This document shows, one piece after another, positions 5,365 through 26,274 of a stretch of DNA of 41,469 nt. The stretch lies in IMG/VR virus record IMGVR_UViG_3300030090_001255, positions 1-41,469 of that record; one strand, written 5' to 3'. The notes under the pieces are model-generated. The model did no database searches. It was given only the letters and a program-made list of their open reading frames with translations, and had not been told where the DNA came from. The stretch is from a virus. Position 1 is the first letter of the stretch. The number at the start of each line of letters is the position of its first letter. The translations under genes and the position numbers were made by a program.

Positions 5365-8300
5365 TACTGGTCTCCTTTGATTGCATCATTATAAGTATAA
5401 CCATATCTTATTAGGTCATCTTCATTTTCTCGTAAGTATCTCTCTAGTATATCTCTATTTAAGAAATGAAACAATGGATATGCTTTTTCTAATTCTTTGC
5501 CTTTTTGTCTAATCATATCTCTAACAAATATCCATTGAGGTGAACTTTTTATTTCAGAGATAACGCCACCTGTTTCTCCTCTTCTTAACATAGTTGCATT
5601 ATCAAAATTTTCTAACCATATATTCAAAGCAATAATGACTTCTTCATCTTGTAACTCAGGTTCTTTTGCTAATCCTCTTAACTGGTCAAATACATTATCA
5701 ACATCAGTAGTTGATTCAGTATATGGTTTATCACCATAGCCAACAAAATAATCTGCTAGTTGGTCTTTATACAATGCCAAGAAGTTATTTCTAATATCAT
5801 CATTAGGTATGAACATAGTGCTGTTAGGGTCATTGACTCTTCTTCTAACATACTCTAATGCCATTCTACCTGCGGCTTGATTTTGTAACTGTGCATATTC
5901 TCCCAAGTCTAAATCTACACGAGCTGCATAATCACCTAGGTAATTATCTGTAAATGAATTATTCCAAGATGCCATAACAAATTCATCTATACCTACATCA
6001 GGCCTTACATAATAAAATACATCTGCATACTTGTCATAGTACTCTTCATTTTCTTGTGCATATTCAAGTGCTTGGTCTGTGTATGGAACTCTTCTAATTT
6101 CTTTTGATTTACTTATAATTAAAGAGGTTGGATTAATTCCAAATACATTTATAAATAATTCTGTTGCTACTTGTTCATCTTGTGTTTCATTTAAAAATCT
6201 TGCATAAACAGATTGCAAAGTATTAAAACCAAATATTCTTCCATCAGGGTCGATACCACGTTTCTTTAATTCAAGTGGGTCTACAAATGCTGAACCACCT
6301 GGTTCTACTTCTACCTCCCATCTAAAAGAAGGAGATGTAAAACTAAACTGTGCTGCAGATTTAATTAAATGTATTACCATTGCATCTTGTTTAACTGTTT
6401 GAAGTATTCTATCCATTTCTTCTTGAGTTCTAGGTTCTTCACCCATAGGTACAGCACCACTAACCAACTTAGCTCTAAGTACTTCTTTCTGCGTATTAAT
6501 TAATTGTCTACTCCAATTTTCAGGACTAGCTTGCATAAATCCACCAATTTTTTGTACCCAAGGCGGTATAAAGATATCTGCTGCTTGTTGTAATGCATCA
6601 CCTTGTGGCTCGCCAAACGGAAATATAAAGTCGTACAATGCATCTGTTTCTTTCATATTAGGCATAAGTGTACGAGCAGCTACTTGTGCGATAGGACCAA
6701 CACCAGGTATAAGTCCACCTGCTACTATGTTTACTCCTGATACAAAACCTACGGTTCTTAAGTTAACATCTACTGCAGGGTCAGCTCCACCTAAATCATC
6801 TTTTTGTACATTGTCAAAAAATCTTCTTATATATGGGTCTAACAATGGGAATACGAATACTTCTTCATTTGTATTTGGGTCTGTGTAAATCATAGGTTTA
6901 TCTTCACCTGCATCTCCACCTAAGAAGTTCCAATTAAATGGATTACCTTCTTTAAGAGTTTGCGTTGTTATAGAAGCTCTTCTTGCTTTTGTTGGGTTCT
7001 CTCTTAAAAGTCTTGTCCAAGTACCTGCAATCTCTAAATGAACTTCTGCGAATGGGAAAATCAAAGCAGTTGCTTGTGAAAACTGTGACCGTTTATTTAA
7101 ACTGTATAATAAATCTTCTGTCTCTGTTAATGCCAAGGATTTTAACATTTGGTCAAACTGTTCTAAATCATCAATACCTATACCTTCACCTGCTGCTTTA
7201 GGTACAAGTTCACGTAATCTCTTTTGAGTACTTCTAGGCATAGACTGTGCTGTTGTAGGGTCTCTTAGTATTCTTGCTAAAGCATCTGCTTCTAATCTAT
7301 CAGCTAGCTTTTCTAAATTAGAATAATAAAATTGCCTAAATGCAGGAGCACGAGATAGTTTGTTTGTAGGTATTGACATAAACAAATCAAACAAATCTTC
7401 TAATTTTTTGTCCCACATACTTTTAGAAAATCTTCCAGTTTCTTCAAATTGTCTTGATAGCTTTACTACATCAGGCCCAAAGTTAGTTTGTTTATATAGA
7501 ATATCTTTTACTATGTCGTATTGTTTTTTAGATGCTAAAGAGCCTAAAGGAACTGGTTTATAGTCATAATTTGTTTTAACCATTTCAATAAGTTCGTCCA
7601 TTTCTTTATTGGTAAGTTCTCTTCCTTTAAAACCAACTTCTGCTTTTACTGCTTCATCTAGCTCTTTTTGCATCTTTGGACTTAATACATCAACTTCTTT
7701 TGTAGCAACCCACTTAACATACTTTTCGGATTGTTCACCTGCTATTAATTCATATATCATAGGTTTAGCTAATGCATCAGTATCTCCTAGTTCTTTTACT
7801 ATAAATCCTTTATCTACTTCTTGAACAATTCCTTTTTTGAGTAAATCTTCAAATGATTCGGTACCCATTGCTACTTGTTGTAAAGTCTCCTCATAGCTTT
7901 GCAGTTCAGTATTAACTACATATTTTCTAAAACCACCACCTCCACCTGCTTTGTCATATAATCTAGCTGCATAACTTTGTAACAACTCTACTGTTCTGTC
8001 TTTGTCTCCATCTATTAATCTACGTCCGTAATCTGTTACAGCATCACCACTAGATACCCAATCTTTATATGCATTACGTATTCTTTCTAAATCAACTTCT
8101 CTTACCCGTCTTGTTGTGCTTCCAAATCGTGAACGTGCTGCTAATCCTCTTATTTGTTCCATATATTCTCTTGTTGTTGTGTTGCCTACAAGAAAATCTG
8201 CTAGTTCATCAAATGATGTAAATGGAGTTGATGGTCCTCTAAAATGAGTAGGTCTTTGATAATCATAAATTATTCCTGCAACAGTTTGCATTAAATCATC

Positions 8301-20125: not shown

Positions 20126-20132
20126 TACTAAG

Positions 20133-20165
20133 GGTAGGTGGTGTAACAGCCATCTACCTTTTTTT
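20133..20165 (+). terminator. Intrinsic terminator of the 149-residue gene
   Basis: GGTAGGTGG (20133-20141) pairs with CCATCTACC (20150-20158), nine pairs with one G-U, closing an eight-base loop and followed by seven T (20159-20165). It is eight bases after the stop codon and makes this a single-gene transcript. Confidence 0.88.
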
Positions 20166-22362: not shown

Positions 22363-22700
22363 TTAATGAAATAGACAAGCCTCAGGTTATGTCGTTAGAA
22401 GATATTAAAGATAACTACAAGACTACAATATTTGTAGGGCAAAGTAGAAGTAGGTTCAACGACACAGTATTTCAGGAGGCTTTGAAACTTGCGTTAAAAC
22501 ATCCAAATAAATATATTAAGTTCTTTGAGTACTCACACGGAGAATTACTTATGGTGAAGAAAGAAGACAATGCCTTGAAATCATATTGTAAAGGCTACTT
22601 TGATAAAAGAGAGATGAAGACTTTCAAAGTACAAACAATAAGACAAGGTAATAAGATTACAGGGTTTCTTGTCAACATAAAGTTGGATGAAGAAGAATGA
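22359..22700 (+). CDS. Early protein of unknown function (113 aa)
   Basis: 113 residues with an alpha/beta pattern: MINEIDKPQVMSLEDIKDNY, then beta strands around TTIFVGQSR and KYIKFFEYSHGELLMVKKE, and a C-terminal beta pair (FKVQTIRQGNKITGFLVNIK) with Asp/Glu tail. It could be a small nucleic-acid or protein-binding fold. Not recognised. Overlaps both neighbours by ATGA. Confidence 0.78.
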   Translation: MINEIDKPQVMSLEDIKDNYKTTIFVGQSRSRFNDTVFQEALKLALKHPNKYIKFFEYSHGELLMVKKEDNALKSYCKGYFDKREMKTFKVQTIRQGNKITGFLVNIKLDEEE

Positions 22701-22915
22701 GTTTATACGAGTTCTTTGATGAGAATACTAAGTCATACCATAACATACTATCGGTTGACTTTAGTTTCCCAAGTAATGTAAAGGCTGAGGATGCTGTAAA
22801 GCAGATTGATGCTTTAGTATCTTTAGCAGATAACAGAGATGACATTGAGTTCAGTGAACACGGTGCATTTTTATATGCGAAGACAACGTTATCTGATGAA
22901 AGTTTCTACACATAA
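22697..22915 (+). CDS. Small early protein before the paired hairpins
   Basis: 72 residues, acidic, opening MSLYEFFDENTKSYHNILSV and mixing beta and helical segments. No family. It overlaps the upstream stop by ATGA and is the last gene before the non-coding hairpin region (22916-23212), so it ends the first part of the operon. Whether transcription goes on past the hairpins is not known. Confidence 0.72.
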   Translation: MSLYEFFDENTKSYHNILSVDFSFPSNVKAEDAVKQIDALVSLADNRDDIEFSEHGAFLYAKTTLSDESFYT

Positions 22916-22982
22916 CGAAACGCATAACTGAGCTACTTACAAGTAGGGGTAGGTTTTCGTACCCTGTTCACCTACTACCGAA

Positions 22983-23066
22983 GTAGGTAGCTCGTACTAC
23001 ACGGGACGGCAGCCCTTTCTGTTGGTTACTTAAGTAAATATGTTTCGTGTAGTACGAGCTATCTAT
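22983..23066 (+). ncRNA. Paired-hairpin element A
   Basis: Arms 22983-23003 and 23046-23066 form 21 base pairs (two G-U) with a 42-base loop. The outer part GTAGGTAGCT / AGCTATCTAT is the same as in element B; the middle GTACTACACG differs. A seven-pair hairpin ACCTACT-ACCGA-AGTAGGT overlaps the 5' foot (22970-22988 approximately) and would compete with it. The loop has a further CAG/CTG stem. There is no frame across it and no U-run after it, so it is not a simple terminator. An RNase III site, a regulatory RNA, or a DNA hairpin used in replication are options. Confidence 0.75.
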
Positions 23067-23109
23067 AGTATTAGCAGTGGGTAGTACCTTAGGGGAAGAA
23101 ACTGTGAAG

Positions 23110-23199
23110 GTAGGTAGCTTGTAGCACATAAGGTTGTAATCCCTTAGCTAAGGTGTAAAAAGTCTAACAAACTTTCCTTGTGTGCTACAAGCTATCTAT
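23110..23199 (+). ncRNA. Paired-hairpin element B
   Basis: Arms 23110-23133 and 23176-23199 form 24 base pairs (three G-U) with a 42-base loop that holds the palindrome CCTTAGCTAAGG. It starts 127 bases after element A and shares its outer sequence. Against A, three stem positions have changed on both arms at once (C-G to T-A, C-G to G-C, T-A to C-G) and one to a G-U, so pairing is preserved. A six-pair TACCTT/AAGGTA overlaps its 5' foot as in A. The ribosome site AGGAGG of the next gene begins three bases after the right arm. Confidence 0.78.
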
Positions 23200-23212
23200 A
23201 TAGGAGGAATGT

Positions 23213-23548
23213 ATGATAGAAATGATACAGTGGATAATCAATCCGATTGCCCACAGAAGAAAGCAAAGGTTATTTGCTGAGGCTATGTATGAAAAGAATA
23301 AGAAAGTTCACGAACAAAATGGATTTTTCTTTATTGATACATTAGTAGACAGTGGAGTGCCTGATGACTTATGGGTATGTGATTTGTGTAATGTTCAGAT
23401 GAATGTTGAAATACACATACCAGTAGTAGATAACTTAGCAATGTGTGAAACTTGCTATAAGAAAAACGAAAAGTATATCACACCAAAAACAATAGAAGGT
23501 GAATGTACTTTAGAATGTTGTGAAACGGAGGAAAAGTATGCAACATAA
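23213..23548 (+). CDS. Zinc-ribbon protein (111 aa)
   Basis: 111 residues. C-x2-C at CDLC and CETC, 21 residues apart, give a zinc-ribbon; a third cluster ECTLECCETEE lies near the C-terminus. The N-terminal half is helical and basic (MIQWIINPIAHRRKQRLFAE). AGGAGG at 23202-23207 sits directly after hairpin B, so translation may depend on whether the hairpin is processed or open. The stop lies inside the next gene. Function unknown; a nucleic acid or polymerase partner is possible. Confidence 0.78.
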   Translation: MIEMIQWIINPIAHRRKQRLFAEAMYEKNKKVHEQNGFFFIDTLVDSGVPDDLWVCDLCNVQMNVEIHIPVVDNLAMCETCYKKNEKYITPKTIEGECTLECCETEEKYAT

Positions 23549-24131: not shown

Positions 24132-24818
24132 ATGAATAGTTGGGAACTATTTAATAAAGTGATAGGTACATCTGACAGGATTTTACTATATGGTAAACCT
24201 GGTACAGGTAAAACTTATCAAGCAACAAAAGTAAACGTGCCTGAAGGCAAAGAAGTATACAGTACTACATTGACTATAGATAGTACTGCAGCAGAGATGG
24301 TTGGTCATTATATTCCAAATGAGGCAGGTACCTATGATTGGAATGATGGCTTGGCTATACGTGCTTGGCGAGAAGGTACAAGATTAATCATCAACGAGAT
24401 TGACCACGCAGGTCCTGATGTCACATCAGTACTTCACGCAATCCTTGATGATGCAGACATTGCTAGGTATACATTACCTAACAGCAAGAAAGAAACTGTG
24501 AAACCTGCTAAAGGTTTTACTGTTATTGCGACTATGAATGGAACGCCTGATATGCTACCTGAAGCATTGGCTGACAGGTTCGGTGTTAAGATTAATATTA
24601 ATACTGTACACCCTGATGCGATTGCTACGCTACCTGAGGACTACAGAACAGTATATACTGAGCGAGATGAAGATGACATACCTATGTCTATTCGTGCTTG
24701 GAAAGAATTTTCTAAGTTGATAGATGCAGGTGTAGACATTAGAAGCTCTGCAACTGCGTGCTTTGGTAGAGATTATGCTGATGACGTTATTGATGCTATA
24801 GAGCTACAAGATGTTTAG
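24132..24818 (+). CDS. MoxR-type AAA+ ATPase
   Basis: 228 residues. Walker A GKPGTGKT (21-28), Walker B RLIINEID (84-91), sensor 1 Asn in VIATMNGTPD (131-140) and arginine finger in ALADRFG (145-151). The spacing and NEID/MNGT motifs match MoxR/RavA/CobS ATPases. The family acts as chaperones that remodel or load metal or subunits onto partner complexes, usually with a VWA protein, which here is encoded next, overlapping by ATGTTTAG. It is short: only a small lid domain follows the core. Likely a hexamer in the cytoplasm. Substrate unknown. Confidence 0.88.
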   Translation: MNSWELFNKVIGTSDRILLYGKPGTGKTYQATKVNVPEGKEVYSTTLTIDSTAAEMVGHYIPNEAGTYDWNDGLAIRAWREGTRLIINEIDHAGPDVTSVLHAILDDADIARYTLPNSKKETVKPAKGFTVIATMNGTPDMLPEALADRFGVKININTVHPDAIATLPEDYRTVYTERDEDDIPMSIRAWKEFSKLIDAGVDIRSSATACFGRDYADDVIDAIELQDV

Positions 24819-26274
24819 GAGCAAATCAGTGAAGAGAAAGAGTAAGTCTGATGGCTTACTCAATCTCGCATTACAAGATAGTGAGTGGTTAATTAAGAAT
24901 GAGAATGGTGAGTACAATGTAAACCACAGCAGCAAAGATATATTGTTGCCAGTCAAGTTGACTAACTCTCATTCAAATAAAACATACAACAAAGCTATGA
25001 AGATACTAGCCGTTGCTGATGCTAAGTATGGCAAAGCACCAAAGATGGTTGGTGTTAAACATCTTCAACCTTACTACATAGATATGGCAGTGCAGCTATC
25101 TGTTTACTGGTATGTAAACAAGAAAGCATTTCCACAGTTTGATATCCCAAGAACTTTACAATTCTATTCTTCTTGGATGGACAACGAAGGTAAGGCAGAA
25201 GCTATTGTTGATATGGTCACGAATAATGTAGCACTAAAGAGGATAGTCAATGCAATGATTAGTGACCCGTGGTTGGCATTACACGAGGCAAGGTACAAAA
25301 CTAATGTACCTTACCTGTTGAAAGGAAGTATACCATCCAGTTCTTTCTCTATGTTAGATAAAGGAGAGATGGACAAACGTGGTAAAGAGCTATGCAGAAT
25401 TGTGACTACTGCAGTTAATATGACAATGAGTGTACGTAAGGATGCAAAGAAATATCCTACAGCAAGGATAAAAGAAGTTGCTCAATACTTACACGATATG
25501 TGTGAAGACAATAACTTCTTGTATGCGAGTATGCCTAGTGAAACTATGTCAGGTCTACAGGATGTTGAGATTGATATGATGGGAATGAAAGATTTCTCAG
25601 ATACAAACAACGAAAACCTTGAACACGCAATGACCAATGCTATGAGAAGAAGTGGTGAAGATGTTCGTTGGGCAAGGATGGAGATATCTTATCCACTGCT
25701 TGAGAAGTCTTTACCTAATAAACTCTTGGGTAAGTCAAAGAAGTATAGTGATATGGGTGTTTCACCTAGAGCTATGCATAGAGACTTGACTGATAAGAAA
25801 GTATTTACTTCTAAGAGTAAAAGAAAATCAGGTACAGTTCTTATAGATGTGAGTGGCTCTATGTCATTTACTGAAGAAGATGTACAAGAAATAATTGAGA
25901 CATTACCTGCTAGTACAGTAGCTATATACTCAGGTGATAGTGATGCTGATGAGAAAGAACCTAGTAAAGTTAAAGGGACACTACGTGTTGTTGGTAAGAA
26001 TGGTAGATACGTTAAGTACATACCTGAACACGGGTTCCATAACCTTATTGATGGTCCTGCTATTGAGTGGTTAACGAGACAAGCCGAGCCTAGAATACTT
26101 GTAAGCGACTTACAGTTTACAGGTTTAGACTATGCTAATCCAAAGCGAGGTGAGGTAAGTTGCTCAGCAGAATTGATTACTGATTGTATGAGAATGATTG
26201 CAACTAAAAATATTATACCTATTCCAAATATAGATAAAGCTAAAGAATGGGTGTTAAAGTACAGAAACGCTTAG
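24811..26274 (+). CDS. VWA-domain partner of the MoxR-type ATPase
   Basis: 487 residues. The MIDAS motif is TVLIDVSGSMSF (343-353), with a later acidic site ILVSDLQFTG (429-438), both features of von Willebrand A domains such as CobT and ViaA. The first 330 residues are helical and basic at the start (MFRSKSVKRKSKSDG), with no other motif. MoxR-VWA pairs are a known two-part chaperone; phages carry them but their targets are mostly unknown. It is the last gene of this transcript, 67 bases before a strong terminator. Cytoplasmic; no signal peptide. Confidence 0.85.
   Translation: MFRSKSVKRKSKSDGLLNLALQDSEWLIKNENGEYNVNHSSKDILLPVKLTNSHSNKTYNKAMKILAVADAKYGKAPKMVGVKHLQPYYIDMAVQLSVYWYVNKKAFPQFDIPRTLQFYSSWMDNEGKAEAIVDMVTNNVALKRIVNAMISDPWLALHEARYKTNVPYLLKGSIPSSSFSMLDKGEMDKRGKELCRIVTTAVNMTMSVRKDAKKYPTARIKEVAQYLHDMCEDNNFLYASMPSETMSGLQDVEIDMMGMKDFSDTNNENLEHAMTNAMRRSGEDVRWARMEISYPLLEKSLPNKLLGKSKKYSDMGVSPRAMHRDLTDKKVFTSKSKRKSGTVLIDVSGSMSFTEEDVQEIIETLPASTVAIYSGDSDADEKEPSKVKGTLRVVGKNGRYVKYIPEHGFHNLIDGPAIEWLTRQAEPRILVSDLQFTGLDYANPKRGEVSCSAELITDCMRMIATKNIIPIPNIDKAKEWVLKYRNA

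Follow-up and report, generated by a model that had tools for sequence, protein, structure and literature searches.

We find that two strong hairpins in the early operon of an uncultured marine phage are copies of a conserved RNA element, hereafter termed X, which is present in over 100 marine virus contigs, where it is noncoding and lies on the gene strand. Our comparison of these copies supports the view that the base pairing of X is kept by selection and that X folds as sense-strand RNA. Judged by their sequences, the X hairpins may represent a new family of RNA switches whose tops are interchangeable and whose strands are shared with a neighbouring fold. X occurs in arrays whose logic a preliminary description of this DNA had not recognised: outer strands are shared, linker folds are conserved and cargo is exchangeable.

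Throughout, the window denotes the whole 41,469-nucleotide stretch that was analysed. Hairpin A pairs window positions 22983-23008 with 23041-23066 (whole element 22983-23066; arms GTAGGTAGCTCGTACTACACG / CGTGTAGTACGAGCTATCTAT) and hairpin B pairs 23110-23133 with 23176-23199 (whole element 23110-23199; arms GTAGGTAGCTTGTAGCACATA / TGTGTGCTACAAGCTATCTAT), both on the plus strand of the early operon between ORFs of 72 and 111 aa. As the preliminary description had reported, the two hairpins are offset by 127 nt, start to start, and have a common end, AGCTATCTAT; its statement that neither a reading frame nor a U-run accompanies them also holds, in that the window ORF list contains no ORF of at least 60 aa across A or B and the array has no U-run. 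The 21-nt arms are separated by 42-48 nt. In a scoring scan for inverted repeats, A and B rank first and second among the hairpins of the 41-kb window. Folded singly, they reach -42.0 and -39.8 kcal/mol, respectively (z about -7.6 each), and the surrounding region 22920-23220 folds as RNA with z = -5.6, a value equalled by none of 100 shuffles. The features of the region are as follows.

22697..22915 (+): upstream ORF, 72 aa, which stops 15 nt ahead of the leader strand
22930..22940 (+): leader strand GAGCTACTTAC, the alternative partner of the A 5' outer strand, forming 11 bp with 22983-22993
22941..22982 (+): linker module Y, AGTARG - P2 - CCCTGT loop - P2' - ACYGAA, from a 31-sequence alignment
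22983..23003 (+): hairpin A 5' arm, in which the outer GTAGGTAGC is frozen and the inner part covaries
23004..23045 (+): hairpin A cargo loop, which includes GCAGCCCTTTCTGT
23046..23066 (+): hairpin A 3' arm, whose outer 11 nt are also complementary to the B 5' outer strand
23067..23109 (+): linker Z, joining A to B; the distant L126 shares it, and near relatives have unrelated linkers in its place
23110..23133 (+): hairpin B 5' arm, of the commonest class GTAGGTAGCTTGTAGCACATA, an exact 19-mer of which is present in at least 120 viral contig stretches
23134..23175 (+): hairpin B cargo loop, which matches L004 and the distant L107 and differs in the near relatives L006, L008 and L009
23176..23199 (+): hairpin B 3' arm, from the arm comparison
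23202..23207 (+): AGGAGG, the Shine-Dalgarno sequence of the gene downstream, 3 nt past hairpin B
23213..23548 (+): downstream ORF, 111 aa, with no family match

Three double-sided stem changes between A and B had been described previously; these are real (pairs 11, 15 and 16), and pair 21 (G-C to A-U) adds a fourth. The accompanying claim that such a pattern arises only if pairing is selected goes too far for two copies alone, for which template switching within a hairpin would suffice, but it is borne out by covariation across the family. A loose search recovered 207 distinct elements that comprise 105 different arm pairs, in which the outer ~9 bp (the frozen helix GUAGGUAGC...GCUAUCUAU, including the wobble pairs G1-U and G5-U) are nearly fixed and the inner ~10 bp vary in both arms together, as in the pairs GTACTACACG/CGTGTAGTAC, GATAGACATG/TGTGTCTATC, ATAGTATGTA/TACATACTAT and GTGGTGTGTA/TACACACCAC. 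Because this search demanded pairing, it was repeated with the outer motifs only, whereupon all ten inner pairs were formed in 156 of 166 elements. The 22 non-major inner classes had on average 9.1 of 10 pairs formed, compared to 6.0 after shuffling of partners (maximum 6.9 in 1000 shuffles), and among 37 distinct arms 98.1% of cells were paired versus 78.8% in shuffles, with 142 double-change cells versus 34. In an alignment of 30 genomic elements with their natural loops, 99.5% of cells were paired, double changes affected 12 of 21 pairs, and double-change cells numbered 56 compared to 10 in shuffles, so that relatives with further compensatory changes do exist. The sequences are related and dependent, and the cell counts are therefore not counts of events; nonetheless, arms slid against each other were only 18-49% paired, which leaves little doubt about selection on pairing despite this kinship. 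The sense strand carries 348 G-U wobbles and 12 A-C mismatches, an imbalance indicating that it is the transcript that folds.

The distribution of X was assessed in two ways. Using the AAA ATPase gene at 24132-24818 as a query, which is independent of the hairpins, we retrieved 28 contigs (L004-L031), 25 of which carry X. The exact 19-mer TAGGTAGCTTGTAGCACAT of the 5' arm, by which L032-L150 were retrieved and L004-L031 were not, matches at least 120 viral contig stretches, a mode of retrieval that overstates the conservation of the major class. Near-complete genomes (ten, including the window) hold 2-5 copies each, confined to a single strand and a single region. A Shine-Dalgarno sequence and an ORF lie 3' of X in 117 of 120 clusters, with the start codon within 30 nt in 61, and the next ORF is on the strand of X in 103 clusters and on the opposite strand in 4 (107 clusters). 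The downstream genes belong to 42 families, and X is thus not bound to one gene. Collectively, these comparisons show X to be a conserved RNA element whose place is the early operon of uncultured marine tailed phages that form a large group. The 21-nt 3' arm is absent from 84,980 bacterial and archaeal genomes, and among annotated phages we found neither a relative of the DNA nor one of the 487-aa protein. The terminase is distantly related to those of Streptomyces phages and the capsid to those of Mycobacterium phages, and two contigs of the phage group that carry X (L171 and L174; PBPX01000045 and PBPX01000048) were binned in an Actinomycetota MAG (RS345); a further such contig (L173) was binned as Gammaproteobacteria. 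Given the actinophage-like structural proteins and the Actinomycetota binning, the host is likely a marine actinobacterium.

Apart from their own partner, the outer strands of X have a second complement, located ahead of the linker, and each 5' arm thus has two mutually exclusive partners. For A, the second partner is 22930-22940, 42 nt upstream, and this pairing closes a linker fold of -27 kcal/mol. An equivalent leader strand was found in 90 of 120 clusters, compared to 20 of 120 in a control stretch, and went undetected in about a quarter of clusters. The linker fold that it closes in the window, Y, is itself conserved: across 31 sequences its closing helix P1 (in the window, leader strand with A 5' strand) is 97.4% paired with double changes in 7 of 10 pairs, there are 65 double-change cells versus 17 in shuffles, and the closing helix is retained in L070, L096 and L100, where the X arms do not build it. 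Y has the invariant core AGUA-G ... CCCUGU ... GAA, in which we take AGUA/GAA to resemble a loop-E module. Y is the commonest linker; others differ, and a CCCYTT/CCCTGT loop is present in 70 of 191 compared to about 4 in shuffles. In several full genomes, a covariance model of Y gives one strong match per genome, always in the X region. A possible resemblance of the linkers to the glutamine riboswitch received no support from Rfam.

These data also revise an earlier proposal that each hairpin has a smaller competing hairpin at its 5' foot. Such a structure exists for A, since its strand is shared with the leader, yet it is larger than described, with 11 bp that close the linker. For B, the counterpart is A 3' strand paired with B 5' strand, recovered as a weaker match to the Y model at 23055-23122 (24.4 bits). 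As a general rule, the proposal does not extend to relatives, in which the stem within the linker mostly bears no relation to X.

We tentatively interpret the array as a cis-acting regulator that operates by cotranscriptional strand exchange, a reading to which we give somewhat less than an even chance. By complementarity and conservation, the putative switching strand has two mutually exclusive conserved partners. When the window transcript is folded at growing lengths, the minimum free energy (MFE) structures are, in turn, leader with A-5', A, leader with B-5', and B. In an MFE series of this kind, as distinct from a kinetic simulation, 99 of 117 clusters have the 5' arm paired with upstream sequence at a length where its own 3' arm is yet to be transcribed, compared to 38 of 117 with shuffled upstream sequence, and the 3' arm then takes over the 5' arm in 94 of 117. 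From the conservation, covariation, shared complementarity and position that the comparison shows, we infer exchange during transcription, an effector and a regulatory output. During transcription, the leader strand (1) would pair with the A 5' strand (2) and close Y, a candidate sensor domain. On emergence of the A 3' strand (3), a toehold would be offered by the inner 10 bp, such that X forms and strand 1 is freed; strand 1 could then pair with the B 5' strand (4) until it is displaced by the B 3' strand (5), just before the Shine-Dalgarno sequence. Stabilisation of 1:2 would instead make strand 3 available for strand 4. At equilibrium, X (-42 kcal/mol) outweighs the leader fold (-27 kcal/mol), so that the switch would settle into a single state unless an effector acts. 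For the window, the output may be the folding, stability or translation of the mRNA of the gene at 23213.

Five relatives suggest how such exchange might be read out. In L044, L059, L087, L090 and L118, a Y hairpin followed by 5-9 U uses the X 3' strand as its own 5' strand; with strand 4 followed by this U-run, 3:4 would constitute a terminator and 2:3 an antiterminator, and these loci may follow attenuator logic, with 1:2 plus 3:4 opposed to 2:3. This terminator form occurs in only 5 of 120 clusters, whose sequences are near-identical and perhaps of one lineage. Most arrays, including that of the window, have no U-run, and their last strand ends at the ribosome-binding site. The nearest published mechanism is that of strand-exchange riboswitches (PMC10907184). 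X resembles these and attenuators in that one strand is shared by two exclusive helices and closes an upstream structured domain, and, in some relatives, in having a U-tailed terminator as an alternative; it differs from strand-exchange riboswitches in that several elements sharing strands form a chain, the cargo is large and exchangeable, and the window has no terminator. The preliminary suggestion of paralogous regulatory RNAs fits these observations as far as selected pairing on the sense RNA is concerned, with regulation itself putative.

A simple switch leaves the diversity of the cargo unexplained. The loops of X are often structured, span about 16-140 nt, with a few longer, and fall into many unrelated families, several of which are common to distant phages. 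In near relatives of the window, the arms, the leader and most of the A loop are kept, and the B loop and the A-B linker are swapped outright. A tRNA-like family among these cargos has a canonical T-arm (GTAGGTTCAAATCCTAC, ATAGGTTCGAATCCTAT), and the stems of this family show changes on both sides; an ARAGORN search of the window and of X cargo for tRNA and tmRNA called nothing, this family included. One might envisage a combinatorial system, in which frozen connector strands would let phages build early-operon arrays from interchangeable linker-sensor and cargo modules that exchange strands serially in transcription and are swapped by recombination at the connectors; we regard this extension as doubtful.

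Sharing of strands between helices could in principle explain why the outer strands of X are frozen. When assessed on the 3' strand only, mismatches were 0.43 versus 0.55 (p = 0.24); inclusion of the 5' strand gave p = 3e-6, but that test is partly circular. The non-circular test thus lends no support to strand sharing as the cause of freezing, which leaves room for recognition of the outer helix by a protein or enzyme and keeps processing by RNase III and scaffolding of small RNAs as rivals of the strand-exchange interpretation.

It is unlikely, in our estimation, that X is a processing stem, a two-turn substrate of RNase III (or of an RNase of the phage's choosing) that would be cut on both strands, thereby splitting the early polycistronic mRNA, creating a defined 5' end before the Shine-Dalgarno sequence and freeing the cargo. 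Processing of phage T7 early mRNA by RNase III is a precedent, and X, like T7-type sites, forms long intergenic hairpins in an early operon. Every copy has a stem of 21-26 bp, about two helical turns and within the range of an intergenic helix of ~20 bp or longer; it stands directly before the Shine-Dalgarno sequence, its loop sequence is almost free, and the inner half of the one long helix is conserved by pairing and not by sequence. Yet RNase III needs little sequence, and the frozen outer 9 bp with G1-U and G5-U are not accounted for by its requirements. The frozen outer sequence, conserved linkers and second partners also set X apart from T7-type sites, and this explanation leaves the linker folds, the second partner strands and the shared structured cargo unexplained.

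Another proposal, improbable on balance, is that X serves as a common handle for the folding and protection of diverse structured RNAs acting in trans, such as tRNA-like pieces, decoys or antisense loops, for example against host defence, which phages would exchange as cassettes. Its high diversity combined with its occurrence in distant phages, its replacement at the same site in near relatives that keep the arms, and the tRNA-like family with its canonical T-arm and covarying stems would all be expected of such a handle. A trans-acting RNA has no need to sit tight against gene starts as X does, however, and no cargo target is known and no TROVE/Ro60 partner protein was found: none of ten window proteins compared with Pfam is a TROVE protein. 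A Ro60/Y-RNA reading was rejected, as TROVE does not match the vWA protein at 24811-26274, whose homologues have the HELGH motif. X arrays are structured RNA, as are GOLLD and ROOL, which are known from bacteria and phages (PMC12286853), but they consist of small repeated modules and not of one large RNA, and they have no Rfam match.

By analogy with HK022 put, an RNA of about 70 nt with two stem-loops that acts independently of protein (PMC9378689), X could bind RNA polymerase directly and render the early operon resistant to terminators. Both are paired, cis-acting structured RNAs in a phage early operon; HK022 putRNA, unlike X, is a two-hairpin RNA downstream of early promoters with neither cargo nor strand sharing (PMC9378689), and X arrays are internal, several genes into the operon in the window, present in 1-5 copies, variable in place and free in their loops, making this account very improbable. 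Hardly credible is a DNA-level role, be it as an attC-like single-strand recombination site, a mobile palindrome or a single-strand replication origin: frozen outer boxes, a covarying inner stem, a variable loop and cargo exchange do recall integron attC, in which the boundary boxes are conserved, the inner stem is conserved in structure and the terminal structure varies (PMC2727003), but X is fully paired (99.5% of cells) with no extrahelical bases, unpaired central spacer or conserved bulge, the strand bias of its wobbles and its strict gene-strand orientation point to RNA, and no recombinase, tyrosine integrases included, was found among 20 window ORFs scanned. The single-strand initiation hairpin of a primase-less phage, which the preliminary description had entertained, is likewise disfavoured by the clustering of several copies per genome between early genes and by their orientation with the gene strand (103 of 107), as well as by the distance to a start codon, which is no more than 30 nt in half of them.

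X constitutes a new RNA family, and its function will decide whether the kind is new as well. No Rfam family matched it at the gathering score, as the preliminary description had asked to be checked, loose thresholds gave only chance-level, sub-threshold matches resembling miRNA hairpins in the region, and a literature search on the arm sequences and on conserved intergenic phage RNA found nothing relevant. It is rare for an RNA with such strong covariation to occur in more than 100 marine virus contigs and yet be missing from Rfam. Returning to strand exchange, X arrays offer a test bed for such exchange between RNA strands during transcription and a candidate regulatory layer in phages that probably infect abundant marine actinobacteria, and their loci show RNA modules swapped like cassettes; if linker domains do sense something, the array would be a new class of phage RNA switch.

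Several further elements were observed in these genomes. L150 from 2018, L124 from 2400 and L091 from 3362 (reverse-strand coordinate) have in common a noncoding RNA of several hundred nt that is closed by an X-type stem, GTAGGTATCGTAAAGTTATC / GATAACTTTACGCTATCTAT, and that of L150 has no Rfam match. L119 carries at 7971-8045 (+) a tmRNA/tRNA-like sequence, GGGGGTG...CACCTCCACTA, without an mRNA part and with a sub-threshold match to Rfam tmRNA (33 bits). The motif GTAGG-N-GGAAACGC recurs in cargos and linkers with varying flanking stems, for instance at L088 2959-3720 and, on the reverse strand, at L119 8963-9100 and L121 1196-1400. A second dispersed hairpin family has 13-nt loops and the form TTATC-stem ... 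stem'-GATACTTAT, with several copies per locus; it is present in L020 (549-605, 858-916, 1148-1206, 1316-1372, 4169-4223 and 8917-8967), in L022 and in L091, where the copies sit before the Shine-Dalgarno CAGAAAAGGGGTAA. Within the window, a terminator-like hairpin with a U-run is located at 20130-20161 (+), close to the start of the early operon. Lastly, the ATPase at 24132-24818 is MoxR/CobS-like and adjoins the vWA protein at 24811-26274, which has the MIDAS motif DVSGSM and whose homologues contain the HELGH metallopeptidase motif, and this pair of genes is conserved in the phage group.
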